64,000 nucleotides of DNA. It comes from Prostheceraeus crozeri. Its lineage: Eukaryota; Platyhelminthes; Polycladida; Euryleptidae. Positions 7,241 to 36,601 of the stretch are shown here, piece by piece. Under the pieces are notes generated by a model. It was not told the DNA's origin. It saw only the letters and a list, made by a program, of their open reading frames with translations, and made no database searches. The stretch is taken from the NCBI GenBank assembly GCA_907163375.1, contig CAJQUW010005234.1, forward strand, positions 346,501 to 410,500. The letters are read 5' to 3'. The stretch's first letter is position 1, and every line of letters begins with the position of its first letter. Made by a program: the position numbers and the translations under genes.

Positions 7241-8054
7241 AGTAGTAATAAAACGGCGAACACCCGACCGGCGCGCCCCCCTCTGGAACGTGACAGGTTG
7301 CGGTCTGTCGTGGTGTGCCGGCCAGGCTGGCGTGGTGTGCCGGCCAGGCTGGCGTGGTGTGCCGGTCAGGCTGGCGTGGTGTGCCGGCCAGGTTGGCCGC
7401 TCCCATCGTTGACAGCAATCGGAGAGAAAGAATGGTCGCTGACGTCCCCCCTCCCTCGAAAACGACAGAGTGTGAGACTCGGGTGAGTTGGCCTCGGGTG
7501 AGTTGACGTGGGCGACCGTCTAGGTTGTCGTGGTGGAATGGTGAAACGGACTTTAGATTCGTGATCAGCGTAAAATTCTGCATCGGTATGGTGAATTTGA
7601 AAGCAATCGGCGAGAAAAAATTTTTCTTCAAAATTTTGACAGAGTTAAAATTTTGGACGTTTTGGGCTGTAGCTTCAAAACGAAGCATCGGAGAGCAAAA
7701 CTGGTTGTAGATTTGGAATCAGCGTAACATTCTGCATCCGTATGGTGAATTTGAAAGCAATCGGAGACAAAAATTTTCTTACACCCCCCCGGCACCGATC
7801 TTCCAATTTTGCTTCTAGTGATCGTAGAAAGTCGTGCAATAGCTCGTTTGAAAGCTAAGAGTGAGACAAATTCAGTGAAAGAAACGGCTTGTTCATATCT
7901 GTCTTCGTTTAGATGTGAGACGCCATTTAAGATTTTGGGAGATTGGAGAAAAACGACAGAGTTAGAATTTTGGACGTTTTGGGCTGTAGCGCCAAAACGA
8001 AGCATCGGATGGGAAAACGGATTTCAGATTTGGAATCAGCGCCATTTATTCACC
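7241..8054 (+). repeat. Left terminal inverted repeat of the Polinton
   Basis: This ~814-bp arm matches the reverse complement of 35165-36601. It contains four tandem copies of a 22-bp GC-rich unit (about 7310-7397), where the right arm has two. It lacks several hundred bases present in the right arm. Frames that look open in it are repeat sequence on both strands and are not proposed as genes. Confidence 0.9.
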
Positions 8055-12363: not shown

Positions 12364-15300
12364 ATGGTAAGTTGAAAATTTCCTCACTCATCTCCCTCAA
12401 ACGTGTGGTTAATAGCATCTTCATCAATTTCAGGCATCAACTTCATCACCAACGCCCTCCCTTCTCGAGGAAAGTTTAGAGTTGTTGAGTCAAGGTAGGT
12501 TGTAACAATACACTGAGACTTTAACAGAGATGAAAGAATGATTTCTCTTTCAGGTGATACCAGCCCCATCTCGAGCGAGTCGGACAACAACAGCGACTCC
12601 ATGTCAACATTGTCGCGGGAATGCAACGATCGGGAATGTGCTGACTGTGGACACATCTTCACGAGGAAGCGTGATCTCGCCCGACACATCAAGCGAGGTG
12701 TTTGTAGACCTAAGTCAGCATCAATCTCCGAAGGTGGGGATAATTCTGTTAACGATGTCTCCTTTTCTTGCGATTTATGCATCACATAAATGCATATCTT
12801 TTGAGTCACATTTTGAACTATCTTCACATAGACTTCGACATACACACAGTGACGATAGTTATACTAACAGCACCTCCTATATCCGACTCTCTGAAGTGTC
12901 GATAAATAATTTAGTGAGGAACTACCAGATGGAATCCTCAGAAACCATTACTGACTTTGAAGAATGGTTTGATCAAAATTCATCTTTGATTGGTGCGCTC
13001 TTCAACAATTTAGTCAATTTTAGAATGAAGGCGCTCATCTATCTCAAAATAAAATATGCAAAAATCGATCACCATACTGGTCAAATAGTAGAGAGGTTGG
13101 AGTTTCACATACCCTTCTCTCCTGCAACCGAAGTTGTAGACTGCGAGTCTTGGATAAATTTTCATATCCAAGGGTTAAAATTAAACATAGATAAATTTAA
13201 CGAGCGTGATAGTGGTCTCGTTTTTGATGGTATTGAGACCGCCATGATTAAAATCACTGTATTGGAGAACTACTCTGGACGAGGCTCCTTTAAACTTCCG
13301 AAAAATTTAAAAATTAAGCAGCAGTCATTTCTGTAGATTGCAAATCGCAATGTTTTAAGTATGCCGTCCTCTCCATTCTCCACTATAATGATGTACAATA
13401 TAGCCGATACCGTAAGAGTAAGTATCAACAGTGGGAGAATGAATTAAAGTTTGATGACTGCAATAGTGAAGATATGAAAATTAAAGATATAGAAAAATTT
13501 GAAAAATTGAACACCATCAAAATAGTTCTCCATGTTTGGGAAAAGGGATTGAAGGGTGTCCGCTACAACTCGCGTTCGAGTTGTTATGATCACGTTGTCA
13601 ACCTTTTATTAGCAAGACAGGATGATAGTGAGGAATGGCACTACTGCGGTATTCCCAAAATTTCTCGCTTATACCACCACTTAAGAAATTCTAGCTCATC
13701 AGAGGCATTCGCAACTTTAGGAGTAAAAATAGATTTGAAACTCATTACGAATGGTGTAAGCGAGGTAAACTACAAATGGAGCGCATGCCCAAAGATAAGG
13801 AGTTTTCATATAGAGAGAATGGCGATGAGATAAGTCCTCTTCGTGTCATCTATGCTGACATCGAATGCTATATCGATGATAACACCCATCGAGCAGCAGC
13901 CATTTCCTGCTATGAAGTATGGCATGACCATTTCCAAAATAGAAAAATAAAATGCACGTCTGGCAAGGTGTGGATTGTATTTACCAATTCCTACAATTCC
14001 TCGAACAGGCTGTAAAATTTCAACAAAAGTATGATGGTGAACTCTATCGCAGATCATTGCATATGACAGCAGATGATCAAGCAAAATTTGATAGTTGCAA
14101 CGTTTGCCTCAAATGTAGGAAAACATTTGATGATGATAAGATTAAGAATGCGCGCGACCATGATCACATCACTGGTAAATTTAGAAACGCACTATGTTCA
14201 AAATGCAATTTTTCACTTAGGATGAAACGGCGTACATTACCCGTCATTTTCCATAATTTCAAGGGCTACGACAGCCATATGATAACAAAGGGAGGTTTAG
14301 GTCAAATGAAAGAGTGGAAGCTTGATGTAATAGCACAAACGAGAGAGAAGTTTATGACCATGACAGCAAAAGTGCCTGTTGATAAAACTAAAGAAAATAA
14401 GACGGTCTATTTTGATATAAAATTTTTAGATTCCTACCAATTTATGACTGCATCACTGGCCTCTCTCGTACAAAATCTAAAGTCTCTTCCACTAACACAA
14501 AATCTTAAGAAAAAATATCCAAATCTAACCGATGAAGTCATCACACGGAAAGGAGTCTTTCCATATGCATATTTTGATGCGATTAATAAACTCGGCGAGA
14601 CTTCTCTTCCGCCCATAGATAAATTTAAAAATGATTTGACCGGCGCAGAATGTAAGACCGAAGACTATGATCATGCACAAGATGCATGGATAAAATTTGA
14701 CTGCCATACATTTGGCGAATATACGATTGCCTATCTCAAGTTAGATGTATTTTTGCTGGCTGATGTATTTCAGGAGTTTCGACGAGTGGCATTAGAAGAA
14801 GATAAGTTAGATCCCGTCCACTTTGTCAGTCTGCCAGCCATGTCATTTAAGTCTGTTTTTAAAATGACTGGTGAGACCATTCATCTCTTACAAGATCCAT
14901 AGATGTATAATTCATTTGAGCCAGGAATTCGCGGTGGTCTCACATTTGTAAATAAACATAGGTTAAAATCAAAATTAGTAGGCAATGATCAGACTCATCT
15001 TAAGTATTATGACCAAAATAATTTATATGGTAGTTCACTATCCAAACCACTCCCTCACTCTGAGTTTAGCTGGTTAGATGATAGTGAAATTCAGCACCTC
15101 TCCAACCCTTCTAACATGCTAGCAATTCCAGATGAAGGTGATTGGGTATATTATTTTGAGATAGATCTAATCTATCCAAATAATATTAAACATAAAACCG
15201 TAGATTTTCCACTCGCACCCGAATCAGGTGAAGTGACCAAAGATATGTTTTCCGACTTTATGAACCAATTTCATAAAGATTTAGAATCATGCAGTCAACC

Positions 15301-16360
15301 CGACTATAAGCCTTCCCGCAAACTTTTACTCACCCAATATGATAAGGAAAACTATCTAGTTCACTTTAGCATCTTAAAATTTTATTTAGAAATGGGTACG
15401 ATTTTAAAAAGAGTTCACCGCATTATTAAATTCAGACAGAAAGCCTTCCTCAAACCATATATTGATAGCAACAGCCAGAAACGTGCACTAGCCCAAAATA
15501 ATTTTGAAAAGGATTTTTATAAGTATAAGAATAATAGTCTATTTGGTATGACGATGGAGGATGTTAGAAAACGTGTAAACTATAAACTAGTCAATGATGT
15601 TACAAAATTTAAAAAATTGGTCTCATCACCTCTATTCATCGATAGAGACATTATCGATGAGGACCTTGTAGGTGTTAAAATGATAAAATCTGAAGTTGAG
15701 TTGTGCAAGCCCATCTATATTGGCCAAGCTGTACTAGATTACTCTAAGATTGAAATGTACCAACTCTTTTATAAAATACTAAAACCATGTCCTCTCGTAA
15801 AAGAGGTTCGTTTGTTGGGTGGTGATACAGATAGTTTCTTCTTAGGTATTACCACTCAAAAAGATTTAAATTTCAATGAAGTAGGAAAATCTTTAGAAAG
15901 ATATTTTGATACATCAAATTATCCTACTGATCACCCACTCTACTCCATCAAAAATAAGGCAAAACTTGGCTGCTTTAAGGATGAGACAGCAGGGAAGGAA
16001 ATAGATGAAATGATTCTCCTCCGCCCAAAAATGTACAGTATGAAATTAAAGGATAGCGACGATAGTATTAAGCGTGCTAAAGGCATATCAAGATCATTGG
16101 TCTCTAACATGAAACATAAAAATTTCAGGGAAGCCTATAGAAATAAAAATATAACGTTTGTCAATATGACAATCTTAAAATCTAAGTCGCATGAGATCAA
16201 AACTCATACTTTTAGGAAACGGGCGCTTTCAGCATGGGAGGATAAGAAGTGCTGGTTAGAAAATAACATATCTCTTCCACATGGACATCCTGACACAAAC
16301 ATACCACCACCCAAAAGAATTAAACTCACACTACCACATTCAGGAGACGTCTTAGCATAA
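12364..16360 (+). pseudogene. POLB: Protein-primed DNA polymerase B of the Polinton, broken
   Basis: Replicative polymerase that would copy the element from its ends with a terminal protein primer. The start codon is followed at once by an intron (12367-12433) and then a second one (12495-12553); both have GT/AG ends and keep phase. Next come two C2H2-like zinc fingers (12640-12850). The exonuclease motifs are YADIEC (13851-13868), NFKGYD (14254-14272) and YLKLD (14732-14746). The polymerase motifs are D..NLYG (15011-15031), NNSLFGMT and GDTDS (15821-15835); motif B has Met where Lys is usual. Breaks: frameshifts near 12785, 13335, 13720 and 13945, and an in-frame TAG at 14900-14902. AATAAA follows at 16516-16521. 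Confidence 0.92.
12367..12433 (+). other. Intron directly after the PolB start codon
   Basis: GTAAGT follows the ATG without any other coding base. The acceptor is a pyrimidine-rich CAATTTCAG, and the next exon opens GCATCAACT. The second intron, 12495-12553, is similar in size (59 bp). Confidence 0.65.
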
Positions 16361-18119: not shown

Positions 18120-19517
18120 TTAACTCTTCATTCGGAAATGGAGTGTGATACTTGTCACAGCATCTTTATGAAAAGGAATCAACGCACCAGCATCGTCATA
18201 AATTGCAATATCAATTTGTGGGATGTAGTTTGATTTCAGCTTTGTATAATGCACTTTCTTGAAAGTATGCTCAGATAAAATACTGCAGCATTTTGGCTGG
18301 TATGGTATCATTGCTAGCAATGGAGCTTCAACATCTCCCACATGTACATCTTCACCAATATTGGAATATATCTGAAAATAGTTAATACGACGTGATAGCG
18401 ACATGTCTGCGCTAGCTTTGGTTACAGTACCACTTTTAAAGATATTTTGATCAAAACCCAAAATGACCATTAGAGTTTTATCCATAATTAGTTCAATACC
18501 TTTTCCACTTATAGTGAGAGACAAAATACCTTCTTTTTCAGATAATGAAATTTGTTGCTCATTAATCACTTCATTTAAATAATCTACAACCAATTTAACT
18601 GAAGTAATAATGCGAGGCATCAACACTCTTGTTTCATGTAAGATACCACCTAAAGGCTTTACAAACTTTCTGTATAAAGATACGGTCCATTCTGTATCAA
18701 ATTGATTTGACCTTTCACATGGTAAATGTTGCATATCAAATTTTCCATGAACAGCTGCAGAACGATGTCGAAAGAACTGATGAAAATCTTTTGAACAAAC
18801 TAATACTAGATCATCATCATTTAATTTACTTATTGCAATATGATTAGATGATTTGATATAAGTCAATGTTGCCACTTGTTTACCATCAACTCGAAGGAGA
18901 TAATTAAATTTCTTCAATAATGTTTCAGGAGTCATGTTTGTCTTTCTTGGCTTAATCACAATCTTCTTCACCAACGTCTTCTCATTTCTTGGAATAAGAT
19001 CTACGTAATAAGCTTCCTCTCGATATATTAACTGTTTATGACCCTTTGGGTGGTAATTAACGTTATAATTATCATAGCTTGTTAAGGCGCTAGCGAGGTA
19101 ACCTAAATCATTTCTTAAACTTGGACTTAAACCAACAATCCAATCTTTCTCAACTACATGATGTACATAATTATGATCATCATTGTGCGGAATAAATTGG
19201 ACAATATGTTTACACGCTTTATTCAGGAAATCAGATATAAACTTTTTACATGATAAGAGATCTTTCTTTGGCCACTGTGGAATGTATACTCGGCAGCCCT
19301 TTTCACATTGGTAAGCAGCTGTGCGTCTCATATTAATAGTCATCACCTCATGATCAAAAGTATAGACACAGTTGCTATGAACAAGTTGAGTGACACCCAC
19401 TTCCCACTTTCCATTTAGCTGTTGTGTATGATCAATGGGAGTAGAAAAGAGTGCGGCTCGATTACTAGCAAATCTATTTGCGGCCGCATTGCTAAGCAAA
19501 ATATGATAAAACGACAT
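18120..19517 (-). CDS. Large Polinton protein B, 465 aa
   Basis: Intact frame. The N-terminus (SFYHILLSNAA...LNGKWEVGV) matches the pattern of the neighbouring paralog. The C-terminus has a block (IDIAIYDDAGALIPFHKDA, then TLHFRMKS) that I associate with conserved large Polinton proteins of PY type, possibly minor capsid or penton components. This is inference from pattern, not a demonstrated role. Its stop is nine bases from the ATG of the downstream paralog, suggesting co-transcription. Its ATG is only 35 bases from the ATG of the divergent gene at 19553. Confidence 0.7.
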   Translation of the reverse strand: MSFYHILLSNAAANRFASNRAALFSTPIDHTQQLNGKWEVGVTQLVHSNCVYTFDHEVMTINMRRTAAYQCEKGCRVYIPQWPKKDLLSCKKFISDFLNKACKHIVQFIPHNDDHNYVHHVVEKDWIVGLSPSLRNDLGYLASALTSYDNYNVNYHPKGHKQLIYREEAYYVDLIPRNEKTLVKKIVIKPRKTNMTPETLLKKFNYLLRVDGKQVATLTYIKSSNHIAISKLNDDDLVLVCSKDFHQFFRHRSAAVHGKFDMQHLPCERSNQFDTEWTVSLYRKFVKPLGGILHETRVLMPRIITSVKLVVDYLNEVINEQQISLSEKEGILSLTISGKGIELIMDKTLMVILGFDQNIFKSGTVTKASADMSLSRRINYFQIYSNIGEDVHVGDVEAPLLAMIPYQPKCCSILSEHTFKKVHYTKLKSNYIPQIDIAIYDDAGALIPFHKDAVTSITLHFRMKS

Positions 19518-19552: not shown

Positions 19553-19909
19553 ATGAAGACTTGGATTTTGGACTCTCTACAATATATCAGAGTTGATCGT
19601 AATGGAAACGTACATTTCAAAAATTCTCATGGTCATACATCAAGAGGTATTACATTAACATGGCGACAATTTGTCAACCTCAATGATATCATGAGGGATT
19701 TGGAATATTTTGAAACATTAAGATTCATCTCCTTGGGTGATCAAGTTTGGCTTCAACATTACAGAAATGAAATTCAAATCTGCCATTCTCATTCCGCAAG
19801 CTGTTTCTCATTTCGCAAATACAATTGGGAGAAGTATAGAAGATACATACATCGCTCCATCATGACATTTATTCGTCGTGAGTTCATCGCCCTACTATGC
19901 AAATCTTAA
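19553..19909 (+). CDS. PC4-like Polinton protein, 118 aa
   Basis: Paralog of the N-terminal part of the next gene. Shared pattern: a LDSLQ.I opening, a strand turn NGNVHFK.S.G, then RGITLTWRQF..LN.IM.DL, then SLGD.VWL, and WEKYRR near the end. The GITLT...F..LN segment resembles the GISL..EQW..L region of the transcription coactivator PC4/p15, an ssDNA-binding protein. The resemblance is short and I hold it as a hypothesis. I chose the ATG at 19553. It stands alone without the TBP-like half found next door and probably arose by tandem duplication. There are 22 bases to the next ATG. Confidence 0.6.
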   Translation: MKTWILDSLQYIRVDRNGNVHFKNSHGHTSRGITLTWRQFVNLNDIMRDLEYFETLRFISLGDQVWLQHYRNEIQICHSHSASCFSFRKYNWEKYRRYIHRSIMTFIRREFIALLCKS

Positions 19910-19931: not shown

Positions 19932-20798
19932 ATGAGTTGGAAATTAGATTCCCTACAACGTATTGAAACGGATCATGATCGAAACGTCTATTTCAAAGAT
20001 TCAACTGGAAATGTGAGAAGAGAGTTTGCTTTATCTTATCGTCATTTTCAATCTCTAAATCATATCATGAAGGATTTGAAATACTTCTATATGAAAAGAC
20101 ATTCACGTATTGGAAATCGCATCTGGTTGCGCGTCAACAAACGGCGAATTCAACTCTATCATTCCCAACTCCATATTAACTTCACATTTCATCAAGGTAG
20201 TTGGGAAAAGTATAAAAGGAAGGTACCCGCTCAATTTACTCATTTTTTCATCATGAAGCGCCATCGCTACACCATTGTCAACATTCTCCGTCGCTTCAGA
20301 CTCTACACCAAAATCGATCTCACAACATTACACCAACACCTTCCAAACAGCAAGTATTACCCGGGCCGACCTCAAATGTTAATGGTGAAGATGAACAATT
20401 CACGGAATCTTCAACTCTTCCCAAATGGGACTGTACAGATTCTCGGCACCCTTTCTCATTCATTGGCGCAGTCAATGCGCTTAGAGCTACAGAGACTACT
20501 ACGTCGGATATGGAAGAGGGAGAGGTGTGTGATGTCGAATCTGACTGTGGACAATATGGTGATCTCTACTCAATTGAGTGAAAGTGTATCATTTTTGAAG
20601 ATTCGTACCAGCAGTTACAATTTGTGTTTTGAACCCGAACATTTTCCTGCAGCTCTCATTAGTTGTTGGTTACCTGTGCATGTTGCAATCTTTCATAATA
20701 GTAAAGTGATCATTACTGGACTAAAATCTCATGTACAAGCAAATGTGATCCTAGACTATCTCATCGAGTATGTACGTACCCAGCGGATTGTAAAATAA
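19932..20798 (+). CDS. TBP-like protein with PC4-like N-terminus, 288 aa
   Basis: Likely promoter-recognition factor. Residues 1-100 repeat the PC4-like pattern of the preceding gene. Residues 113-193 and 203-282 are two related halves, as in the saddle of the TATA-binding protein. Half 1 has VNI, then KIDLTTL...N..YYPGR, then LQLFPNGTVQILG. Half 2 has DNMVIS, then FEPEHFPAALI, then VAIFHNSKVIITG. Known TBP features kept by my alignment: both DNA-contacting Asn (N117, N208; yeast N69, N159) and three of four DNA-kinking Phe (F163, F238, F254; yeast F116, F190, F207). The fourth (yeast F99) is P147. The frame is intact, and AATAAA overlaps its end at about 20794. I know of no earlier Polinton example. 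Confidence 0.82.
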   Translation: MSWKLDSLQRIETDHDRNVYFKDSTGNVRREFALSYRHFQSLNHIMKDLKYFYMKRHSRIGNRIWLRVNKRRIQLYHSQLHINFTFHQGSWEKYKRKVPAQFTHFFIMKRHRYTIVNILRRFRLYTKIDLTTLHQHLPNSKYYPGRPQMLMVKMNNSRNLQLFPNGTVQILGTLSHSLAQSMRLELQRLLRRIWKRERCVMSNLTVDNMVISTQLSESVSFLKIRTSSYNLCFEPEHFPAALISCWLPVHVAIFHNSKVIITGLKSHVQANVILDYLIEYVRTQRIVK

Positions 20799-20824: not shown

Positions 20825-21286
20825 TTATTTCAAATCATGATAGAACTTACAAATCATTTTTTCATTAGAGGATGGATTACATGAAAAGTTTTGAATAACA
20901 GATACAAATCGAGATACATGTAAACGTTTTAAGATGAAGTACAGTACAAAAGCACCACACGTTGATGAAAGTGGATGTTGTAGTATGCGTTCATTTCGCT
21001 GATATTGACGCGTATGTTTTCTCAACCACTGCTGTGTTGGTATGTTTGGAGGTTGAGCAAGAGAGTCAAATAGTTCACCACGTCGGTCTTCTCCAATAAA
21101 GATCGCTTTCCAATGCTCACTGCCTAAATTCTGCGAATGAGTGTTTAGCACAATAAAGATGGGATAGTGATTTACTGCAGGTGGTAAGGTATCGAGCGAA
21201 TAGACATTATCGAAAGCTTTCAACGTCGCTTCGTCTGCATTACGCTGTACTTTAGTTTTAATATCGTCAGCAGTCAACCAACTCAT
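20825..21286 (-). CDS. PRO: Adenain-type cysteine protease
   Basis: Maturation protease that cleaves virion precursors in Polintons and adenoviruses. The triad is visible: H58 in SEHWKA, D74 in GELFDS and C110 in SSTCGAF, with oxyanion Gln Q103. The length of 153 aa is short but usual for Polinton copies. Its ATG overlaps the stop of the capsid gene by one base (TAATG), so both likely come from one transcript. A reverse-strand poly(A) signal lies at the stop (about 20822-20828), overlapping that of the convergent TBP-like gene. Confidence 0.9.
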   Translation of the reverse strand: MSWLTADDIKTKVQRNADEATLKAFDNVYSLDTLPPAVNHYPIFIVLNTHSQNLGSEHWKAIFIGEDRRGELFDSLAQPPNIPTQQWLRKHTRQYQRNERILQHPLSSTCGAFVLYFILKRLHVSRFVSVIQNFSCNPSSNEKMICKFYHDLK

Positions 21287-22563
21287 TAACGATTATACTG
21301 AAGAATCACGTCACGATACTTTGTAATTTCAATATTTGAATCGAAGACTGCATAAATTAATACATTGATCGTCTCAGGTAGTGTTCTTTTGAACGTCAAA
21401 TCCAAACGAATATTATGAGGCACGTTCGCTTGACGATAGGGTGCACTAATATCGCTGTCAGCAGTCAAATCAAATGCATAAATAGTATATCCACTCTTAA
21501 ACTCTTTCACAGTGAGTCCGTTGGTGTCATCCGTATTGTAAAAGCCAAAGACATCCATAAAATCAACATAACTGCGCATAAATTGATCCGCAGCAAAATC
21601 TGGTTTGTAGGGTGGACCATGATGACTCACACCATTTACGCGTAAAGCAATTTCACTTAACTGATTGTGTTTAAAGTTGAAAGGATTCTTCTTTATATTA
21701 CCATTAAATGCATCATTTTCAACCATTGCCACCATGAGGAGCTTCGGTGCTTCCGATGGAAAGAGGCCATCTTTCATGAAACTCTTTTGATCTTTCGGAA
21801 TTGTAAAGGTGAGAAGCTTTGTATGCTGAACGGGGTAAATGGCATTTTGGCGGTTAAGACCTTCAGCATGCCCTCTAATGACACTTGGATTCGGTACTAC
21901 TCGACGAATGTAAAGTGCAATATCTTCCACATGAATTCTAAAATTGTCAACTTTAGCAAATGCATTCAGCGCAAATTCAGGCTTATTCAATGTCAGCTTG
22001 AGTCGCATGCTGGTATTACAGAGTAAAAACTTTGACTGTCTAAAGAAGTCTAAATTCAGCGGACCATATAGCTGACATACTTTACTATCTTTAATCATAG
22101 CAGATCGCTTTACAAAGCCACTGTTTGTTTCAGCATCAAATTTTCCTGCTTCATCTCTGTACCATCCCATGGCTTCCATATGACTTTTTTGTGCTGCTGG
22201 ATGAAACTGTGATACATGATTGAAATATGATTTATAGGGATAATCGCTTTGACCACCTTCCACCTGCTGCTCTCCTATCGTTAGAGAAACATCGCGAAGT
22301 AATGTAGTCAATGGTAAATTGTTCAGTCCAACTTTATGTGTATCGTCAATAGCAGTTCCATCTGCTTGCTTAATTCTAAACCTCAAATCAACCATCGCAT
22401 AACTCAAATCTATGTAGTCATCACTACCACCAGGAATAACAAATTCAATGGGGCCAGCATTCTCAGCTGTTCGAGGATGATAATCTACAATACTTGAACT
22501 AAGAATATCTGTCTGTATGGCTTGTTGATCAAACAAACAAAAACCGGAAGTTTTACACTCCAT
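21286..22563 (-). CDS. MCP: Major capsid protein (double jelly-roll type)
   Basis: An intact 425-aa frame in the position and company expected of the Polinton capsid protein, just upstream of the protease. The family forms the trimeric hexon-like shell unit through two jelly-roll domains. The order is a beta-rich N-terminal region with FVIPGGSDDYIDLSYAMV, then a YKSYF.H segment, then a second beta-rich half ending in LDLTFKRTLPETINVLIYA. The identification rests on these patterns and the neighbours; no structure was computed. The ATG overlaps the end of the basic-protein gene by 11 bases. Confidence 0.87.
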   Translation of the reverse strand: MECKTSGFCLFDQQAIQTDILSSSIVDYHPRTAENAGPIEFVIPGGSDDYIDLSYAMVDLRFRIKQADGTAIDDTHKVGLNNLPLTTLLRDVSLTIGEQQVEGGQSDYPYKSYFNHVSQFHPAAQKSHMEAMGWYRDEAGKFDAETNSGFVKRSAMIKDSKVCQLYGPLNLDFFRQSKFLLCNTSMRLKLTLNKPEFALNAFAKVDNFRIHVEDIALYIRRVVPNPSVIRGHAEGLNRQNAIYPVQHTKLLTFTIPKDQKSFMKDGLFPSEAPKLLMVAMVENDAFNGNIKKNPFNFKHNQLSEIALRVNGVSHHGPPYKPDFAADQFMRSYVDFMDVFGFYNTDDTNGLTVKEFKSGYTIYAFDLTADSDISAPYRQANVPHNIRLDLTFKRTLPETINVLIYAVFDSNIEITKYRDVILQYNR

Positions 22564-23811: not shown

Positions 23812-26800
23812 TTAAAGACATGCGCGAGAAAGGCAGTCGGCAACCACATTGTCTCGTCCTCGTATGTGCTTGATGTCGAGGTCAAAGTCTTGAATACTGA
23901 GACTCCATCTTAGGATCCGCATATTCCTATCCTTCATTTTGTCCATAAACACAATTGGGTTATGATCGGTAAGAACGACAGTCCGAAACGCAGCAGTACT
24001 CAAGTATACAGAAAAGTGTTTTAGCGCTGAGATCAAGCCATATGCTTCCTTTTCTATAGTTGAATAACGTTTTTGGTGCCTATCAAATTTTTTTGAAAAG
24101 TAGGACACTGGGTGATCAACCTCGTTATAATTCTGTGATAAGATGGCTCCAACTCCTAAATCACTTGCATCTACAGTAAGGATAAACGGTTTTTTCATAT
24201 CAGGAGACTTTAATACAGGAGGAGACGTTAATAACATCTTAATATTCTGGAATGATTTTTCGCATTCGTCAGTCCATAGAAATTCAACCTTAGCACTGGT
24301 TAGGTTAGTAAGTGGCGAAGCAACTTGAGAAAAATTTCTACAAAATCGTCTGTAGAATCCAGCCATGCCTAAGAAACACCTTAACTCTCGTTTAGTAGTA
24401 GGACGAGTGAAGTTACAGATTGACTCAACTTTTGATTCAATAGGTTTAACTGAACCATATCCTACTTCGTGACCGAGGTATTGAACTAATGCTTTTCCAA
24501 ACTCACACTTTTTCAAGTTGATAGTAAGGTTGGCGGAATTTAGTCTAATCATCAAATTTTCGATTTGATTAACATGATTGTCCCATGAGGAACTGAAAAT
24601 GACTAAATCATCAAGGTAAGCAGCACAACCTTCTAAGCCGTTAATAATTTGGCTAACAAGACGTTGGAAAGTAGCAGCTGAATTTCGCATTCCAAAGGCC
24701 ATTACTCGGTATTGCCAAAGACCATCAGGAGTGGCAAAGGCTGAACAACGCTTGGCTCTATCGGTTAACGGTACTTGCCAAAAACCTTTCATTAAATCAA
24801 GTTTTGAAATATATTGAGCATTACCGATCATGTCAATACAGTCGTCTATTCTAGCCATAGGGAAGTTATCAGGTACAGTCAGAGCATTTAGTTTACGGTA
24901 GTCGGTACAGTAGCGACTCGAACCATCACTCTTGGGCACAAGTATACAGGGTGAAGACCACTCACTTGTACTCGGCTCAATGATATCGTTTTCAATCATA
25001 TACTGGATCTCTTGTTTCATTAATTTCATTTTCTCGAAATTTACTCTGTAAGGATGCTGTCGTATAGGTTTCGCGTTGTTAGTCTCGACATCATGCATTA
25101 TCAGATTCGTGACTTTAGGGCTGTTACTAAATAAGTCTTTGTATTTTTCTATCAATGAAATGATATCACATTTTTTATTATCTTCAAGATGGGAGAGATA
25201 ATTATCTAAGTCGCTCAGAATGATAGAATTATCTAATTTCAGTGGAGGAATTATGTCAGTAAAATCCTCTTTGTCATATTGAGGTATATCAGTTATCTCG
25301 CTTTTGGCAAGGACTTGTACTGGTTTTGGTTCACTTTCCAAATCTCTTTCGTGATACTTTTTTAACATATTGATGTGACAGACACGAGATTTCTTTTTGC
25401 GATCGGGAGTTTCTACGACGTAATCGAGATTGCTCAATTTCTGTTTTATAAGGCAAGGGCCATAATATCGCGCTTGTAATGGGTCTCCTTGAATTGGCAA
25501 ATAAACCAATACTTTGTCTCCCGGAGAAAAACGTCTTTCGGAAGAACTTTTGTCGTATCTGAATTTCATTTTCTTTTGTGATTCAGCAAGATTTTTACGC
25601 GCTAAGTCTCGGACTTCGTGAAGTCGTTTCCTAAAATCGGAAACGTATTCAAGTAAACTGCTTGATTCAGCATAGTCAGTTTTTAGCCATGTTTCTTTAA
25701 GCATTTTCAATGGACCACGAACTTCGTGACCAAATACTAAATCAAAAGGACTGAATCCTAAAGATTCCTGGACAGTCTCTCGAGCAGCAAAAAGCACTAA
25801 AGGAACACCCTGACTCCAATTTCGGTCATTTTCATGGCAATATGTTCTTAGCATATTCTTTAGGGTTTGGTGAAATCGTTCGAGAGCTCCTTGAGACTGA
25901 GGGTGATACGCACTAGAAACAGAATGAGTTATATTAAGCTCATATAAGACTTGCTTAAAGACTTTCGAAGTAAAATTACTTCCTTGATCGCTTTGTACGG
26001 TTCTTGGTAAACCAAATAATGAGAAAAATTTGATCAAAGCGTCTATCACTGTCCTAGCAGTAATGTTTCTCAGTGGAATAGCTTCTGAGAAGCGTGTCGC
26101 AGAGCACATAATAGTGAGCAAGTATTGAAAACCGCGTTTACATTTTGGCAGAGGCCCTACACAGTCAATAATAACGCGACTAAACGGCTCATCAAAGGCC
26201 GGAATGGGTTGGAGAGGTGCTTTATCGGGTTTTGCGTTTGGTTTGCCAACAATTTGACAGGTATCGCAACTTTTGCAATAATTAGAAACGTCTGACATAA
26301 TCCCTGGCCAAAAGAAGTGTTTCATTATTCGAAATCTTGTTTTTCTGACACCTAAATGTCCAGCCATGGGATGATCATGTGCCAAACTGATAATTTCTTT
26401 GCGATATGGAGTAGGTACGACAATTTGATTAATTACTTTCCAGTCCTCATCAGCAGGTGCATCAATAGGACGCCACTTGCGCACCAAAACGTCATCTTTT
26501 AGATAATAACTTGGAACTTTCTCTGTGTCTGCAGTTTCAGCTAGATTGAATAACTTCTGTAAACTGTTATCGGACTTTTGATCCTTGACTAGAGTCTCGC
26601 GATCTAGTTTTAGGTTTACGGAATCATTTTCAAGAACTGGACACCTTTTAGTTCCTTTGACATCGGTGTCAAATAAAAACGTTTCACTGAGATCAATTTG
26701 GTCATTATTGTTTACCATTTCTTTTGCCTTAGATCTAGTGACAGCGCAAGCTGGGAATAAATTATCGTCATTTACTGTAACATCTACAGGTCTGTCTGTC

Positions 26801-27046
26801 ATAATTGGCGTAAACACACTAGCTCCCATGAGATCATTACCGAGTAACAAATGAATTCCCTGAATAGGTAACTCATTGATAACACCGACTTTTATCGGTC
26901 CATTGATAAGATCAGATTTCACGTGCAGTTTGTGCAGAGGCACTGAAACGCGCCCCGTAACACCTTTTATGGGAACTGTTGACTGAAGGAAAGTATTATC
27001 GGACACAGGAACAACTCCTTCAACAAGTAATGACTGATAGCAGGCT
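23812..27046 (-). CDS. pol: gypsy pol: protease, integrase, RT, RNase H
   Basis: Residues here are numbered from the GTG at 27006, but the frame is open upstream and contains the retropepsin-like WRDSACYQSLL motif just before. The domains run as follows. Rest of the protease (LPIQGIHLLLGNDLMG, 46-61). Integrase (about 205-550) with an HHCC-type finger (H212/H217, C247/C250), D281, D340 and E376, then a GPY/F-like tail. Reverse transcriptase (about 640-815) with AYLDDLV (YLDD 797-800). RNase H to the end, with LTVDASDLG, STIEKEA and LTDHN. The frame has no stops over 1,064 codons. Integrase placed before RT is the notable feature. The start is uncertain because a LINE fragment interrupts the gag-protease junction. 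Confidence 0.93.
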
Positions 27047-27059
27047 GAGTCTCGCCATA

Positions 27060-27814
27060 TCTTTATGGGAATTGCTGTAATTATATATAATTCTATATTT
27101 CAGTAAGAGTGTCAGTAAAGGTACAGTAAGTAATACATGCAAATCATCAGTAGTATAAGACACGTGTTAAAGACCATTACGAAAAGTCAATTAAGAGTCA
27201 AAAATATTTAGAACACCTAACAATCAATTTTTCTAAAGTCGGCTTCCCGACAGACAAATTCGATATCAACATTTTGTGAATCGTCGTTGAAATAGAGTGA
27301 CCTAGATCCACGTAAGCATAAAAGACAAGAACGTAACAGATGAAAGGACAGTCTAGTCCTCACCCAGCTGATGGTCTTGCTGTACTCGACATTCCTTTTT
27401 TCAGATAATTTTTCGGATAGTCTTTTGTAGAATGCGCGACATTCTTTTGCCATACCACCGGTACATGAAAAGACCAACGGAGTAAAAGAGCCTTGATCTA
27501 CTAAGCATATTCTTTCGTTGTATGATCGCTTCTTTGATTCTTCATGCTGCCGATGAGCAGAGGAAAGTTCGAAATCAAGGTTAGTCTTGGCTAGCGGGTT
27601 GAACACCCTTACGTCGAAATATGCCATTTGCCCCTCGATCCAGACACCCCTGGCTGCTATGTCAACACGAGCTTCATCGGTAATAACAGTGCTTTTCGGG
27701 AATGATTCTCCTGATAGTGGAGTTAAGCAAGGCTCTACCCTGGAGCACTTGTAGCATTCACTTAACAACCCAGCAGTGAAGTCCCTGATCTCATTATGTC
27801 TCTTTATGGGAATT
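27060..27814 (-). mobile_element. LINE 3' fragment inserted in the gypsy protease region
   Basis: A 727-bp insertion (27074-27800) is bounded by a perfect 14-bp repeat TCTTTATGGGAATT (27060-27073 and 27801-27814). A duplication of that length fits target-primed LINE insertion. It holds a minus-strand frame (27768-27217) opening at RHNEIRDF just upstream and running through VDIAARGVW.EGQ.AYFDVRVF and SFTPLVFS..GG to LSFHLLRSCLLCLRGSRS. I recognise this as the C-terminal, PD-(D/E)XK-like region found at the end of many non-LTR polyproteins. It separates gag from protease, so this retrotransposon copy should not make a normal gag-pol. Confidence 0.75.
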
Positions 27815-27826
27815 TGACTATTTGTG

Positions 27827-28915
27827 TCAATACCTATGGAACCAAACTTGTTTACTGGAAGATCTTTCTTCCTTACGTTTGAGAACCCAACAGTCAGTCA
27901 CACGGTGACCTCTCTTTTTGCAATATTTGCATTCTATTGCCTTTCCTGTCAGTTTCTTTATATCACTCACAACAGGTGGTGATGTAATAATTTCGTGTTC
28001 CCCTTTATTGAAAATTTTCTGGGGCTTCTGGTCTGCCAATTTGTGAGTCAAATCATACTGATCTGCCGCTCTTGCGGCATCTTGCAGACTAGTTAAATTT
28101 CTCTCATTGAGATACGCTCTGATGTTGGTTCCAGTACAATTTTTGAACTGCTCTATAAGGATAATCTGTCTTAAAGAATCAAATGTTTGAACATTTGCTG
28201 AAGAGCACCATTTATCAAAAAGAATTTCTTGCTCTTTTGCGAAATCGAGATAACTACTTCCTACATCTTTTCTTTTGTTTCTGAATTTTTGACGATAGGC
28301 TTCAGGAACCTTTTCGTAAGCTTGTAGTATCTCTAATTTTACGACATCATAATCCTTAGCGCTGAAATCTGACAACGCAACGTAGACTTTTTGAGCCTTT
28401 CCAGTGAGAGCTGTCTGTAGCAATAAGGGCCATTTTTCTTTTGGCCATTTTGAAGCAATAGCTACACGTTCAAAATTTTGGAAAAATATTTCAACGTCAT
28501 TTTCGTTAAATTTAGGAACCAATCGAATTTGGGTAGCCAAATCTACATCAGAATTTTTAGAAGCGTATGCGTGTTCGAGTCTCAGTTTTTCCAATGTTAA
28601 TTGCTGCTGCATTTTCATTTCCTCAAGTTTCAATTTAAACTCTTGCTCAATACGAATTTTTTCAAGTTCAAGAATATGCCTTTCATTTTTGCTTTGATCG
28701 GAATCGTTAGTAGTGCTACTGTTTTCTGAATTTGTTTCGCCAAGATTGAAATGAGTCATTAAAGCGTTAATAATCATGTCTTTGCGCATCGATAAGGTTA
28801 CTTCAATGTCAAAATGTTTACTAACTTCAATTAATCGAGCCTTAGTACAAGACCTAATCTGATCGACAGTAGGATTTTCTTGAATTTGTTTGATTAACTC
28901 TTCAACAGAATCCAT
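27827..28915 (-). CDS. gag: gypsy gag, 362 aa
   Basis: Structural protein of the retrotransposon. It has an N-terminal helical region, a Lys/Glu coiled coil (about residues 75-115), a capsid-like region with a SCAN-like helix set (about 205-290), and one CCHC zinc knuckle CKYCKKRGHRVTDC near the C-terminus. The frame is intact. The start is the first ATG after the 5' LTR and primer-binding site. Confidence 0.9.
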   Translation of the reverse strand: MDSVEELIKQIQENPTVDQIRSCTKARLIEVSKHFDIEVTLSMRKDMIINALMTHFNLGETNSENSSTTNDSDQSKNERHILELEKIRIEQEFKLKLEEMKMQQQLTLEKLRLEHAYASKNSDVDLATQIRLVPKFNENDVEIFFQNFERVAIASKWPKEKWPLLLQTALTGKAQKVYVALSDFSAKDYDVVKLEILQAYEKVPEAYRQKFRNKRKDVGSSYLDFAKEQEILFDKWCSSANVQTFDSLRQIILIEQFKNCTGTNIRAYLNERNLTSLQDAARAADQYDLTHKLADQKPQKIFNKGEHEIITSPPVVSDIKKLTGKAIECKYCKKRGHRVTDCWVLKRKEERSSSKQVWFHRY

Positions 28916-29664: not shown

Positions 29665-30885
29665 TCACTGTCGATCACTTAGATGAAAGATGTCAGCACG
29701 ACGCATCCAAGAGTTCATACTTGAAGGATAACCAGTCCATTTAACAAGACACCATTCTTCACCTTGTCGTTTTTTACATCGAATGATTTTCTCTACCAAA
29801 TATGTTTCACTTTCAGTGACTACCTCAATCTCATCGCGGTAAAAGCTACCCTCAATTTCTTCATTATCGTAATCTTTCAACTTGTAGGTGGTGGGAGAGT
29901 CTTTTTGATCAATCCTTGATACTGTAAATACCTCCTCTGTCCAATTCGGAAGGTTCCCTTTAGCAAAAACACTCTTCACTTTTGAGATACGAACTTTATC
30001 ACCAATTTTCACATCACTTTTCACATGAGTGCGTTTACGTTGGAATGATTCGCGCACTTTATCTACATTGTCAGCATTTACATCTACTGGTCTGAGTCCA
30101 ATAGAACGATGGATAGAGTGATTGTAGGCATGGAGTGTATCTTGTAGAACCTTTGTCCAATTTTGTGTCAAGTTGGCAGTAAAATGTCGCCACAAGCAAT
30201 TTTTTAATGTTCGATTAAAACGTTCAACGAGTGCAGCTTTATAAGCACTCTTTACACTAAACAACTCAATGTCATGCCTCTCAAATAATCTTCTCACATG
30301 CTGATTTTCAAACTCTTTTCCTTGATCACTCTGAATTCTTTTTGGAATGCGACCTTCTCGAAAAATTGTTTGGAATGCTTTTGCTACTCCTTTCCCTTCT
30401 TTAGTTTTTAAAGGTTCAGCCCACGCATAACACGAGAAAATATCAATGACGGTTAAAATAAAATTATTGCCCGAGTTATGTTTTGAAATGGAGGCAACAT
30501 CACACAAATCTGCTTGCCACTGTTCATCGATGTCATGAACAATATAATGGCGGGTGCGGTACTTCTTTTTCGCTTGTTTGTGGAGTGTATAGGTAGCCTG
30601 ACCCCTTAACCATCGTTTCACTTGTGATTGTGGAAGACCACTCGCTTTTGATAATTTCTTCATAGATGCAAATCCTGCCAGATGTTTTACATCATAATAG
30701 ATTGACTTCAAACGTTCAGTCGATGACGACTGACTCTTTTTCCTCCTTCTCATCTTTTTGTTTTCTTGCCTTTCTACATTTACAACAACTGCAGCATTTA
30801 GCTTTAGCGGTTTTGCGATCGTGTTCACATTGCTTAGGGGTTTCATTGTGAGAGCTGGCGCAGCAAGTGGAAGTGACAACGACAT
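29665..30885 (-). CDS. INT: Polinton integrase with C-terminal chromodomain
   Basis: Retroviral-type integrase that inserts the element. The 406-aa frame is intact. The N-terminal region has WLRGQATYTLHK, typical of Polinton integrases, before the core. Catalytic residues are D126 (WQADLCDV), D187 (QSDQGKEF) and E221 (VERFNRTLK). An SH3-like region follows (KIGDKVRISK), then a chromodomain (about 362-400: YLVEKIIRC, VKWTGYPSSMNSW) that may steer insertion to modified histones. The true start may be M45 (30753), because the first 44 residues overlap another frame. No HHCC finger is visible. The downstream neighbour was the core protein until the gypsy insertion. Confidence 0.95.
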   Translation of the reverse strand: MSLSLPLAAPALTMKPLSNVNTIAKPLKLNAAVVVNVERQENKKMRRRKKSQSSSTERLKSIYYDVKHLAGFASMKKLSKASGLPQSQVKRWLRGQATYTLHKQAKKKYRTRHYIVHDIDEQWQADLCDVASISKHNSGNNFILTVIDIFSCYAWAEPLKTKEGKGVAKAFQTIFREGRIPKRIQSDQGKEFENQHVRRLFERHDIELFSVKSAYKAALVERFNRTLKNCLWRHFTANLTQNWTKVLQDTLHAYNHSIHRSIGLRPVDVNADNVDKVRESFQRKRTHVKSDVKIGDKVRISKVKSVFAKGNLPNWTEEVFTVSRIDQKDSPTTYKLKDYDNEEIEGSFYRDEIEVVTESETYLVEKIIRCKKRQGEEWCLVKWTGYPSSMNSWMRRADIFHLSDRQ

Positions 30886-34038: not shown

Positions 34039-34404
34039 ATGGCGAAACGTAAAATGACAAAACGTAAAAGTCAAAAGTCTTCAAAGTTTTCTTCAGCCAT
34101 TCAAGCTCTCCGACGAATGAAAGCAAATCAGCGATGCAATGCTATACGACATGCTAACGATAAATTCATTCGTGAAAGTATTTCTCATGTGAGAAAGTTG
34201 AGGACGAAGAAATTAGCACCAAAACAACGAAAGTTACTTAAGCGATATGCTACGAAATTGCGTTTCATCTCCAATCCTAAAGTCACCCTTCAAAGAAAGA
34301 GGGAAATTCTAACACAAAAGGGCGGTTTCCTTCCAGCGTTACTACCGATGCTAGCTCCTATCGTGTGCAACGTATTGGGTAATATCTTTGGCTCTAGACG
34401 TTAA
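34039..34404 (+). CDS. Basic core-like protein with hydrophobic C-terminus, 121 aa
   Basis: Lys/Arg-rich over the first 90 residues. It ends in a hydrophobic segment starting GGFLPALLPMLAPIV followed by RR. This composition recalls the small DNA-condensing core protein (pX/mu type) of adenovirus-related elements. The role is inferred. The frame is intact and directly upstream of the packaging ATPase. Confidence 0.7.
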   Translation: MAKRKMTKRKSQKSSKFSSAIQALRRMKANQRCNAIRHANDKFIRESISHVRKLRTKKLAPKQRKLLKRYATKLRFISNPKVTLQRKREILTQKGGFLPALLPMLAPIVCNVLGNIFGSRR

Positions 34405-34435: not shown

Positions 34436-35023
34436 ATGGATTTCAGACTTCAATGTGATAAAGTTCTGACTGTATCAGGTCCATCTAATGCAGGTAAAAC
34501 TGTTTTCACGCTGAATTTATTGGATAAAAGAAGGGAGTTGTTTAAGGAACCTATCAATCGAGTGATTTGGTGTTATGGTATTTATCAACCGTCGCTGTTT
34601 CAGGAATTGCAAAGTCGCAACTTTATTCGACATGAAGGAATTATTCCAGTGGATAAACTTCAGTCTAATGATGTTGTTGTATTGGATGATTTATTAAAAG
34701 AAAGTAAGAATTCAAAAGATGTTACAGATATGTTCACTCGCGCAGCACATCATAAAAGGTGCTTTATGATCTATATCACACAAAATTTGTTTCCTGATGG
34801 AAAAGAAGCTCGTACACGAAACCTGAATACACACTATTATGCTATTTTCAAGAATCCGCGAGATAAAAGTCAATTTGAAATTTTAGCGCGACAAGTTGCA
34901 CCCAGAGGATCAAAAGCCTTAATTGAAATTTTTCAAGCAGCTACTGAAAAACCACACGGTTACATTGTATTAAGCTTACGTTCAAGGGAGGAGAGGGAGG
35001 GAAGTAGCGACTTACCATTTTAG
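34436..35023 (+). CDS. ATP: FtsK/A32-type genome-packaging ATPase
   Basis: The motor that would pump DNA into capsids. Walker A GPSNAGKT is at residues 15-22 and Walker B VVVLDDLL ends with D84-D85. YITQNLF, with downstream R and N residues, and FKNPRDKSQ follow as in Polinton ATPases. I used the ATG at 34436 (195 aa). The frame is open some way upstream without an ATG. It is intact and the last gene before the right terminal repeat. Confidence 0.93.
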   Translation: MDFRLQCDKVLTVSGPSNAGKTVFTLNLLDKRRELFKEPINRVIWCYGIYQPSLFQELQSRNFIRHEGIIPVDKLQSNDVVVLDDLLKESKNSKDVTDMFTRAAHHKRCFMIYITQNLFPDGKEARTRNLNTHYYAIFKNPRDKSQFEILARQVAPRGSKALIEIFQAATEKPHGYIVLSLRSREEREGSSDLPF

Positions 35024-35164: not shown

Positions 35165-36601
35165 TTGGACAATAACATCAAGCTGATTCCAAATCTGAAA
35201 TCCGTTTTCCCATCCGATGCTTCGTTTTGGCGCTACAGCCCAAAACGTCCAAAATTCTAACTCTGTCTTTTTTCGCCAATCTCCCAAAATCTTAAATGGC
35301 GTCTCACATCTAAACGAAGACAGATATGAACAAGCCGTTTCTTTCACTGAATTTGTCTCACTCTTAGCTTTCAAACGAGCTATTGCACGACTTTCTACGA
35401 TCACTAGAAGCAAAATTGGAAGATCGGGCCGGGGGGGGGGACGTCAGCGAATATTAATTCCTCTCCGATGGAGCTGGAAATACACCATTTCCATGTAGAA
35501 TTGGACGCTGAATCCGAATCTGGCCTCCATTTTCTCATCCGATGCTTCGTTTTGGCTCTACAGCCCACAGCCATCGCAAAAATTCTAACTCTGTCGTTTT
35601 TCGGAAAAATGAAGAAAAATTTTTTCTCGTCGATTGACTTGAAACTCACCATGTTGATAGAGAATTTGACGCTGATTCCAAATCTGAAATCCGTTTTCCC
35701 ATCCGATGCTTCGTTTTGGCGCTACAGCCCAAAACGTCCAAAATTCTAACTCTGTCGTTTTTCGCCAATCGCCCAAAATCTTAAATGGCGTCTCACATCT
35801 AAACGAACACATATATGAACAAGCCGTTTCTTTCACTGAATTTGTCTCACTCTTAGCTTTCAAACGAGCTATTGCACGACTTTCTACGATCACTAGAAGC
35901 AAAATTGGAAGATCGGTGCCGGGGGGGTGTAAGAAAATTTTTGTCTCCGATTGCTTTCAAATTCACCATACAGATGCAGAATGTTACGCTGATTCCAAAT
36001 CTAAAACCGTTTTGCTCTCCGATGCTTCGTTTTGAAGCTACAGTCCAAAACGTCCAAAATTTTAACTCTGTCGTTTTTTCGCCAATTCACGAAATCTGGT
36101 AAATCTTGTTTCTGCTCTAACTTCTAAACGACTAAACCGATTGACAAGAAATTTCAACACTGAATTTGTCTCACTCTCAGCTTTCAAACGAGCTATCATA
36201 CGTCTCCATCCGTCCACTGGAAGCCAAGATCGAAGCTAGCTCTCCCGAGGGGGGGGGGTAAGAAACTTTTTGTCTCCGATTGCTTTCAAATTCACCATAC
36301 CGATGCAGAATTTTACGCTGATCACGAATCTAAAGTCCGTTTCACCATTCCACCACGACAACCTAGACGGTCGCCCACGTCAACCCACCCGAGGCCAACT
36401 CACCCGAGTCTCACACTCTGTCGTTTTCGAGGGAGGGGGGACGTCAGCGACCATTCTTTCTCTCCGATTGCTGTCAACGATGGGAGCGGCCAACCTGGCC
36501 GGCACATCACGCCAGCCTGGCCGGCACACCACGACAGACCGCAACCTCTCACGTTCCAGAGGGGGGCGCGCCGGTCGGGTGTTCGCCGTTTTATTACTAC
36601 T
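35165..36601 (-). repeat. Right terminal inverted repeat of the Polinton
   Basis: About 1.44 kb, the inverse of 7241-8054 with extra DNA. A module of about 250 bp (centres near 35300 and 35800, spacing 489 bp) occurs twice here and once on the left. Frames inside it that look open are repeat sequence on both strands. Confidence 0.9.

Follow-up and report, generated by a model that had tools for sequence, protein, structure and literature searches.

A predicted TATA-binding protein encoded in an overlapping gene pair of a flatworm Polinton, with a likely role in marking the element's own promoters

Introduction

In cells, the transcription of genes is started by the TATA-binding protein (TBP). 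Some viruses are known to encode a TBP as well, with examples from giant viruses, mirusviruses and herpesviruses. As far as the literature was searched, Polintons are new to this list; they are often put close to the root of several groups of eukaryotic DNA viruses. Here we analyse a 64,000-nucleotide stretch of the genome of the polyclad flatworm Prostheceraeus crozeri (GCA_907163375.1, contig CAJQUW010005234.1, positions 346,501 to 410,500 of the forward strand), which carries a Polinton with a gene for a divergent TBP overlapped by a second gene, that of protein A. The whole stretch is called the window, and coordinates are given in its numbering.

TBP is present in 59% of mirusvirus genomes (PMC10132985), and TATA-binding proteins are mentioned in elements tied to mirusviruses (PMC10675990). 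Viral TBPs often lose an acid that contacts TFIIB, about 40% keeping it at one position, many of the viruses concerned encode a TFIIB of their own, and the changes in viral TBPs have been argued to provide escape from host regulators (PMC7221094); the position in question is probably one of the E186 and E188 sites counted below. The TBP mimics of beta- and gammaherpesviruses (the ORF24 group of Kaposi's sarcoma-associated herpesvirus, KSHV) have been linked to TATT promoters and to host RNA polymerase II (Pol II), and have an additional domain at the N-terminus for binding the Pol II tail (PMC7498053), whereas the Polinton protein is a bare core of 181 amino acids. By analogy, these mimics are its nearest functional parallel.

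Like Polinton/Maverick elements and adintoviruses in general, the element studied here has a family-B DNA polymerase (PolB), an rve integrase with a chromodomain, a probable C48-like protease and inverted repeats; it differs from them in adding a gene pair for a TBP and a Pur-like protein. Vertebrate Maverick pz, pw and pm are of unknown function (PMC8097293), and neither TATA nor TBP occurs as a term in the accessible main texts on Polintons and their kin that we searched (PMC8097293, PMC4028283, PMC3671162, PMC4642659, PMC10120064, PMC10328495, PMC7805220, PMC11071308, PMC11071296). A first annotation of the window, made from the letters alone (hereafter the original prediction), knew of no description of a TBP in Polintons, and we likewise found no earlier report in the accessible literature, covered by titles, the starts of abstracts and main-text terms.

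Results and Discussion

The original prediction placed a single TBP-like gene of 288 residues at 19932-20798, inside a Polinton. The setting was borne out by the type B polymerase, rve integrase and terminal inverted repeats found around the gene, which are among the features by which Polinton/Maverick elements are recognized; the element measures 29 kb with a retroelement included. The gene model stood in part. An open frame of 288 codons does exist, but the TBP is a frame of 181 codons with its own ATG at 20253, and residues 1 to about 100 of the longer frame belong to the overlapping protein A, whose frame is disrupted in this copy.

Two stretches of the window protein match the Pfam TBP family (PF00352, E=3.2e-17, 62.6 bits against a cut-off of 22.9), as anticipated from the two related repeats seen at residues 113-282 of the longer frame, so that a significant profile match is found in both halves. 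The relatives P0002, P0003 and P0004 match PF00352 likewise; P0002 and P0004 begin at the Met equivalent to the 20253 ATG, and P0003 has an in-frame extension. A phmmer search of the PDB returned 35 sequences at E<=10, 34 of them named TBP or TFIID and one the ECU04_1440 protein, and the best PDB profile match is archaeal. The AlphaFold model (predicted local distance difference test, pLDDT, 94.8) has the saddle fold, the outcome that the original prediction had looked for: all 44 Foldseek matches in the PDB at E<=0.001 are TBP chains or complexes containing TBP, and in BFVD the fold matches virus-encoded TBPs. At E<=0.001 a TBP-family profile finds 183 proteins, a figure that counts the members of the query, and the observation is thus not due to chance; the best 120 of the 183 were used for picking and comparison. 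Taken together, sequence and model indicate that the element encodes a two-repeat TBP, which belongs to the TBP superfamily as a divergent viral form.

The DNA face and the TFIIB surface were compared in an alignment to yeast TBP with 33 rows, comprising the window sequence and 32 proteins hand-picked from the best 120 of the 183 matches. All six residue assignments made originally proved correct (N69=N117, N159=N208, F116=F163, F190=F238, F207=F254 and F99=P147). The canonical set of four intercalating Phe is incomplete, with Pro at the F99 site in 33/33 sequences, window included, and Phe at the F116, F190 and F207 sites in 33/33. Elsewhere in the first repeat the V122 site is Gln in 33/33, the T124 site Leu in 30/33 and the V71 site Met in 25, Leu in 4 and a gap in 4 of the 33, while the N69 site is Asn in 27/33 and a gap in 6/33. 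The second repeat is unaltered at the N159, V161, F190, F207 and T215 sites in every row, with Ala at the L205 site and Ile at the V213 site, each in 32/33. The E186 and E188 sites, which we take to be the TFIIB-contact acids of yeast TBP, hold Glu in 31/33 (Asp in 2/33) and in 33/33, respectively; the TFIIB-facing L189 site is Leu in 27/33 and His in the window TBP. From this pattern the change appears mostly one-sided, with a near-conventional second repeat and a rebuilt DNA face on the first.

The element protein thus shares with cellular TBP (PF00352) its two repeats, predicted saddle fold, both Asn, three of the four kink Phe and the acidic TFIIB loop, but is set apart by its first repeat (Pro for the first Phe, Gln for V122, mostly Leu for T124), by an identity of about 20-25%, and by a gene that is intronless, lies in a mobile element and is overlapped by another. 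With the TBPs of giant viruses and mirusviruses it has in common that it is virus-encoded, as its BFVD matches are; unlike many viral TBPs, it keeps the acids. No TFIIB was seen among the element ORFs (open reading frames) scanned.

Host TBP is separate from the element protein, being 79-86% identical to yeast TBP compared with about 25%. The same genome also holds a TBP-like locus (G000:C3829:151570-151929) that is 39% identical to yeast TBP, contains one stop and is neither host nor Polinton TBP; it is perhaps a TBP paralogue or a pseudogene. Animals have TBP paralogues, and this together with such a locus might point to recent capture of a TBP, or of a TBP-like paralogue, from the host. We regard recent capture as scarcely credible given the gap in identity to yeast TBP, the private first repeat common to the 33 aligned sequences and the archaeal best profile match.

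Protein A, which begins upstream of the TBP gene and runs into it in another frame, has a folded part of about 114 residues. By model its N-terminal domain would consist of Pur/whirly/PC4-type repeats, a fold that binds single-stranded nucleic acid in known proteins. In structure comparisons Pur-alpha scored a higher Z than PC4 and Whirly, and the latter two were rejected as its identity on this ground. Protein A differs from Pur-alpha (repeats I-II), Whirly, MRP1/2 and PC4 in giving no sequence match and in having a tail read from another gene's DNA. The protein is 211-222 amino acids long in 18/18 relatives, and in a modelled relative pLDDT is <50 over residues 126-221.

Protein A and TBP occupy overlapping open frames. 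In the window the tail frame has 0 stops across about 108 codons, compared with 9 in the third frame. We made 5000 synonymous shuffles that keep the TBP protein, with its own codons or with the codon usage of the element; the tail frame is then expected to contain a mean of 6.7 or 8.5 stops, and it was stop-free in 1/5000 and 0/5000 shuffles, respectively (P 0.0002 for the window). The 18 relatives of protein A are known here as protein sequences, and the overlap was therefore judged from protein, by asking whether the DNA of each tail could also encode the TBP family in the next frame. The comparison covered 55 profile columns built from 29 TBPs, with the window sequence and the three relatives closest to it excluded. 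In 18/18 the tail fits TBP in the second frame, with a score above those of 300 shuffles, of 18 slid registers and of the other frame (z 9.3 to 11.4), and in all of them the two residues that span the TBP start would allow an ATG. These 18 are not independent, as P0021-P0024 are mutually close and P0005 equals copies in the flatworm genome studied here.

A second Polinton lineage in the same genome (locus L065) has a TBP in the same place, 42% identical over 171 residues to that of the window. Its protein A, with 23% resemblance to the window protein, is 199 amino acids long and also ends in SIE; its TBP frame runs from 1438 to 2010 in that locus, with the equivalent Met at 1489. The tail frame there has 0 stops where 5.6 are expected (P=0.0007), the same shuffle test gives P 0.0003 at locus L066, and the third frame contains 9 to 13 stops across the overlap in the window, L065 and L066. 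These observations support the view that TBP in Polintons is more than a one-copy oddity, and both overlapping frames are probably translated. Overlap of A and TBP across so deep a divergence offers a natural case of overprinting, with an ancient fold paired with a second-frame gene and an internal control in the half, roughly, of TBP that lies outside the overlap. The protease, probable capsid and probable minor genes adjoin TBP in 75/75 fetched loci (L001, the window's own, to L060 and L064-L078), in agreement with the expectation that homologs would lie beside the protease gene, although this holds for the flatworm's own genome; no relatives of TBP or A were confirmed among IMG/VR viral contigs. 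As the protein database gives no context either, the Polinton context is known from this genome alone.

The 288-codon frame arises in the window copy from a frame-changing indel that joins the start of protein A to TBP. Copies were sought in the window's own 2.05-Gb genome, scoring the best 150 places at most per search, so that counts are lower bounds. With the fused protein as query, at least 135 copies match over its full length or nearly, and this abundance, like the open frame in the window, might suggest that the Pur-like domain fused to TBP makes up a real, functional protein. However, such a query selects for fused copies, and in the 30 of the 135 that were fetched, the window's own included, the frame change lies at several different places, which indicates that the fusion arose repeatedly. 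The unfused protein A as query, which conversely selects for intact A, finds it intact over 216 amino acids in 150/150 scored copies. All 30 copies fetched from this search have A of 216 amino acids, and 28/30 have an open TBP of 181; in one of the remaining two, TBP is cut by the limits of extraction. Queries that cover TBP only do not select for fusion, and they return fused-length frames (>=287 codons) in 10/147 rows with yeast TBP, after three host rows were dropped, and in 9/150 rows with P0143. Since P0002 and P0004 start at the TBP Met, and since assembly indel errors in repeats would give an identical picture, we consider a functional fusion very improbable and do not retain it as the normal gene; where one 288-residue product had been proposed, relatives have a separate A and a TBP with its own ATG. 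From the copy searches and from 12 loci fetched by a TBP-only query (described below), we conclude that indels, or else assembly error, have given rise to the 288-residue form repeatedly and as a private by-product, that decay of either gene is common and that intact copies of both genes exist.

Among the unfused copies, 52 places share the top score against the 216-residue protein A, all at 100% identity, and identity is 99-100% in the remaining 98 listed. Such uniformity suggests that the element spread very recently in a wave of transposition or infection. At locus L073 the TBP start codon is altered and both frames are still open.

What might such a TBP do? We think it likely, if well short of certain, that this Polinton encodes its own TBP in an overlapping gene pair in order to mark its own promoters. 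The C-terminal repeat keeps the contacts to a normal TATA half-site together with the acidic TFIIB-binding loop, so that the protein could recruit host TFIIB and through it host Pol II. Changed from Phe to Pro, from Val to Gln and from Thr to Leu, the N-terminal repeat would recognize another half-site and evade the regulators that hold host TBP by its N-terminal lobe. Protein A might assist where the promoter is melted or during replication. Its tail is read from the DNA that encodes the first TBP repeat, and the TBP ATG lies inside A; this overlap may serve to express both proteins from one message, or A may have extended into a TBP gene that was there before it, once a stop was lost. Translation of both frames, DNA and TFIIB binding, the half-site change, the role of A and transcriptional use are all inferred.

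The TBP might instead serve something other than the element's promoters, either by hindering host or competitor transcription or by bending DNA at a replication origin. The N-terminal half is altered in 33/33 aligned sequences, titration would need TFIIB binding alone, and a Pur-like protein next door would be apt for the single-stranded DNA of origins. Nevertheless, the C-terminal half retains both its DNA-binding face and the TFIIB loop, as fits promoter use, and the herpesvirus TBP mimic acts on viral promoters (PMC7498053); a role away from the element's promoters therefore seems to us unlikely.

Promoter marking could be extended to a further proposal that we advance tentatively and hold to be possible rather than probable, namely that Polintons of this large family carry a compact two-gene transcription module on one DNA stretch, in which a half-rebuilt TBP and a Pur-like protein provide a private promoter code. 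The C-terminal half of TBP would read a host-type half-site and dock host TFIIB, the N-terminal half would be element-specific, and with A's tail overprinted on the gene for TBP the two proteins would be made together and neither would be free to change. If this is true, a small element directs host Pol II by a promoter code of its own and needs neither a polymerase nor a TFIIB of viral origin. A bare TBP with a TFIIB surface in any case allows tests of the way in which host Pol II is claimed by a small element, and of how change in one TBP half alters the reading of DNA.

Several results weigh against an intact gene pair that marks promoters. With one kink Phe lost and two more contacts changed, TATA binding may be weak or gone, and no promoter motif common to both Polinton lineages was found. 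The Pur-alpha likeness has no support from sequence, with no Pfam match and no Foldseek match at E<=0.001; a Pfam PUR match is lacking for P0005-P0007 and for the 118-residue paralogue listed in Table 1, although filters may drop weak matches above E 0.1. In the 12 loci fetched by a TBP-only query, A is unbroken to its usual end in seven, broken before TBP in three and stopped early in two, and TBP is open over its length in ten, one of these without an ATG; A is broken before TBP at L064, and at L066 its tail runs nine codons beyond the usual stop. The ratio of nonsynonymous to synonymous differences (pN/pS) across the 30 fused copies is 1.70 in the tail frame, no lower than the 1.56 of the third frame, and purifying selection specific to the tail frame is thus not seen among these copies, in all of which A is disrupted. 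Between the two lineages pS is 0.26 in the overlap and 0.33 outside it, which is the direction expected of dual coding but not significant (P about 0.2). Within the set of 30 fused copies, pS amounts to 0.0315 inside the overlap and 0.0517 outside, a weak contrast because the Pur-like part is equally low (0.0312).

These ratios, with the predicted disorder of the tail, are also what one would expect if the tail were untranslated and its frame stayed open through constraint by TBP and base composition, a view compatible with all that was said of TBP. On the other hand, shuffles that keep TBP do put stops in the tail frame in the window, L065 and L066 alike, the remaining frame is littered with them, and the tail is continuous with the folded domain at a near-constant length in the 18 relatives. 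We consider an untranslated tail quite unlikely, somewhat more so than a TBP with another task, and prefer the reading in which both frames are used.

Before the 17 gene starts examined no TATA-like motif occurs at a constant place. The octamer-like TATGCAAA lies 30-47 nt before 4/17 gene starts (19896, 19540 on the minus strand, 33992 and 34406). Over the window as a whole there is no clear enrichment (8 compared with 5.45 expected; 22/100 shuffles reach 8), and in the second lineage none was seen ahead of these genes; for these reasons it was not used as a promoter motif.

The features of the element are collected in Table 1. The tandem paralogue of the protein A N-terminal domain is 42% identical to P0006 and has relatives of equal length in P0020, P0025, P0027 and P0028. 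The polymerase frame is interrupted in the window copy by an in-frame stop; its first piece matches PF03175 (E=1.4e-9) and PF02945 (E=7.6e-8), and the second piece has no Pfam match and was assigned by position. The capsid and minor protein labels are presumptive, with no library match.

Table 1. Features of the Polinton and its TBP region in the window
Feature	Position	Strand	Basis
TBP gene, 181 amino acids, own ATG, between protein A and protease gene	20253..20798	+	translation, Pfam, AlphaFold, PDB matches
Protein A, N-terminal domain, two beta-sheet-plus-helix repeats, Pur-alpha-like by model	19932..20227	+	
Protein A, tail in other frame over about the first 109 TBP codons, open, ends SIE-stop, predicted disordered	20228..20581	+	
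Tandem paralogue of protein A N-terminal domain, 118 amino acids, without overlapping tail	19553..19909	+	translation
Probable cysteine protease (Ulp1/C48-like), constant TBP neighbour	20825..21286	-	PF02902 E=0.0014, 18.9 bits against cut-off 20.7
Probable major capsid protein, constant neighbour	21286..22563	-	no Pfam/PDB sequence match
Probable minor/structural protein, constant neighbour on other side	18120..19517	-	no Pfam match above cut-off
Family-B DNA polymerase with endonuclease VII domain, two adjoining pieces, one frame	13952..16360	+	PF03175, PF02945
rve integrase with chromodomain	29665..30885	-	PF00665 E=1.3e-10, PF00385 E=6.1e-7
Packaging ATPase-like protein (A32-like, weak)	34436..35023	+	PF04665 E=0.04, under cut-off
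Left terminal inverted repeat, patchy	7241..8044	.	inverted repeats with 35182-36601
Right terminal inverted repeat, patchy	35182..36601	.	inverted repeats with 7241-8044

Both terminal inverted repeats are composed of repeated segments in several registers. Inside the Polinton, a Gypsy-like retroelement on the minus strand (23812-28915) carries a polyprotein with reverse transcriptase and integrase and a gag-like ORF, labels that were assigned by eye. A basic protein of 121 amino acids on the plus strand (34039-34404) weakly matches PF05829 (adenovirus protein X; E=0.0013, under the cut-off), which hints at an adenovirus-like core or membrane-active protein.
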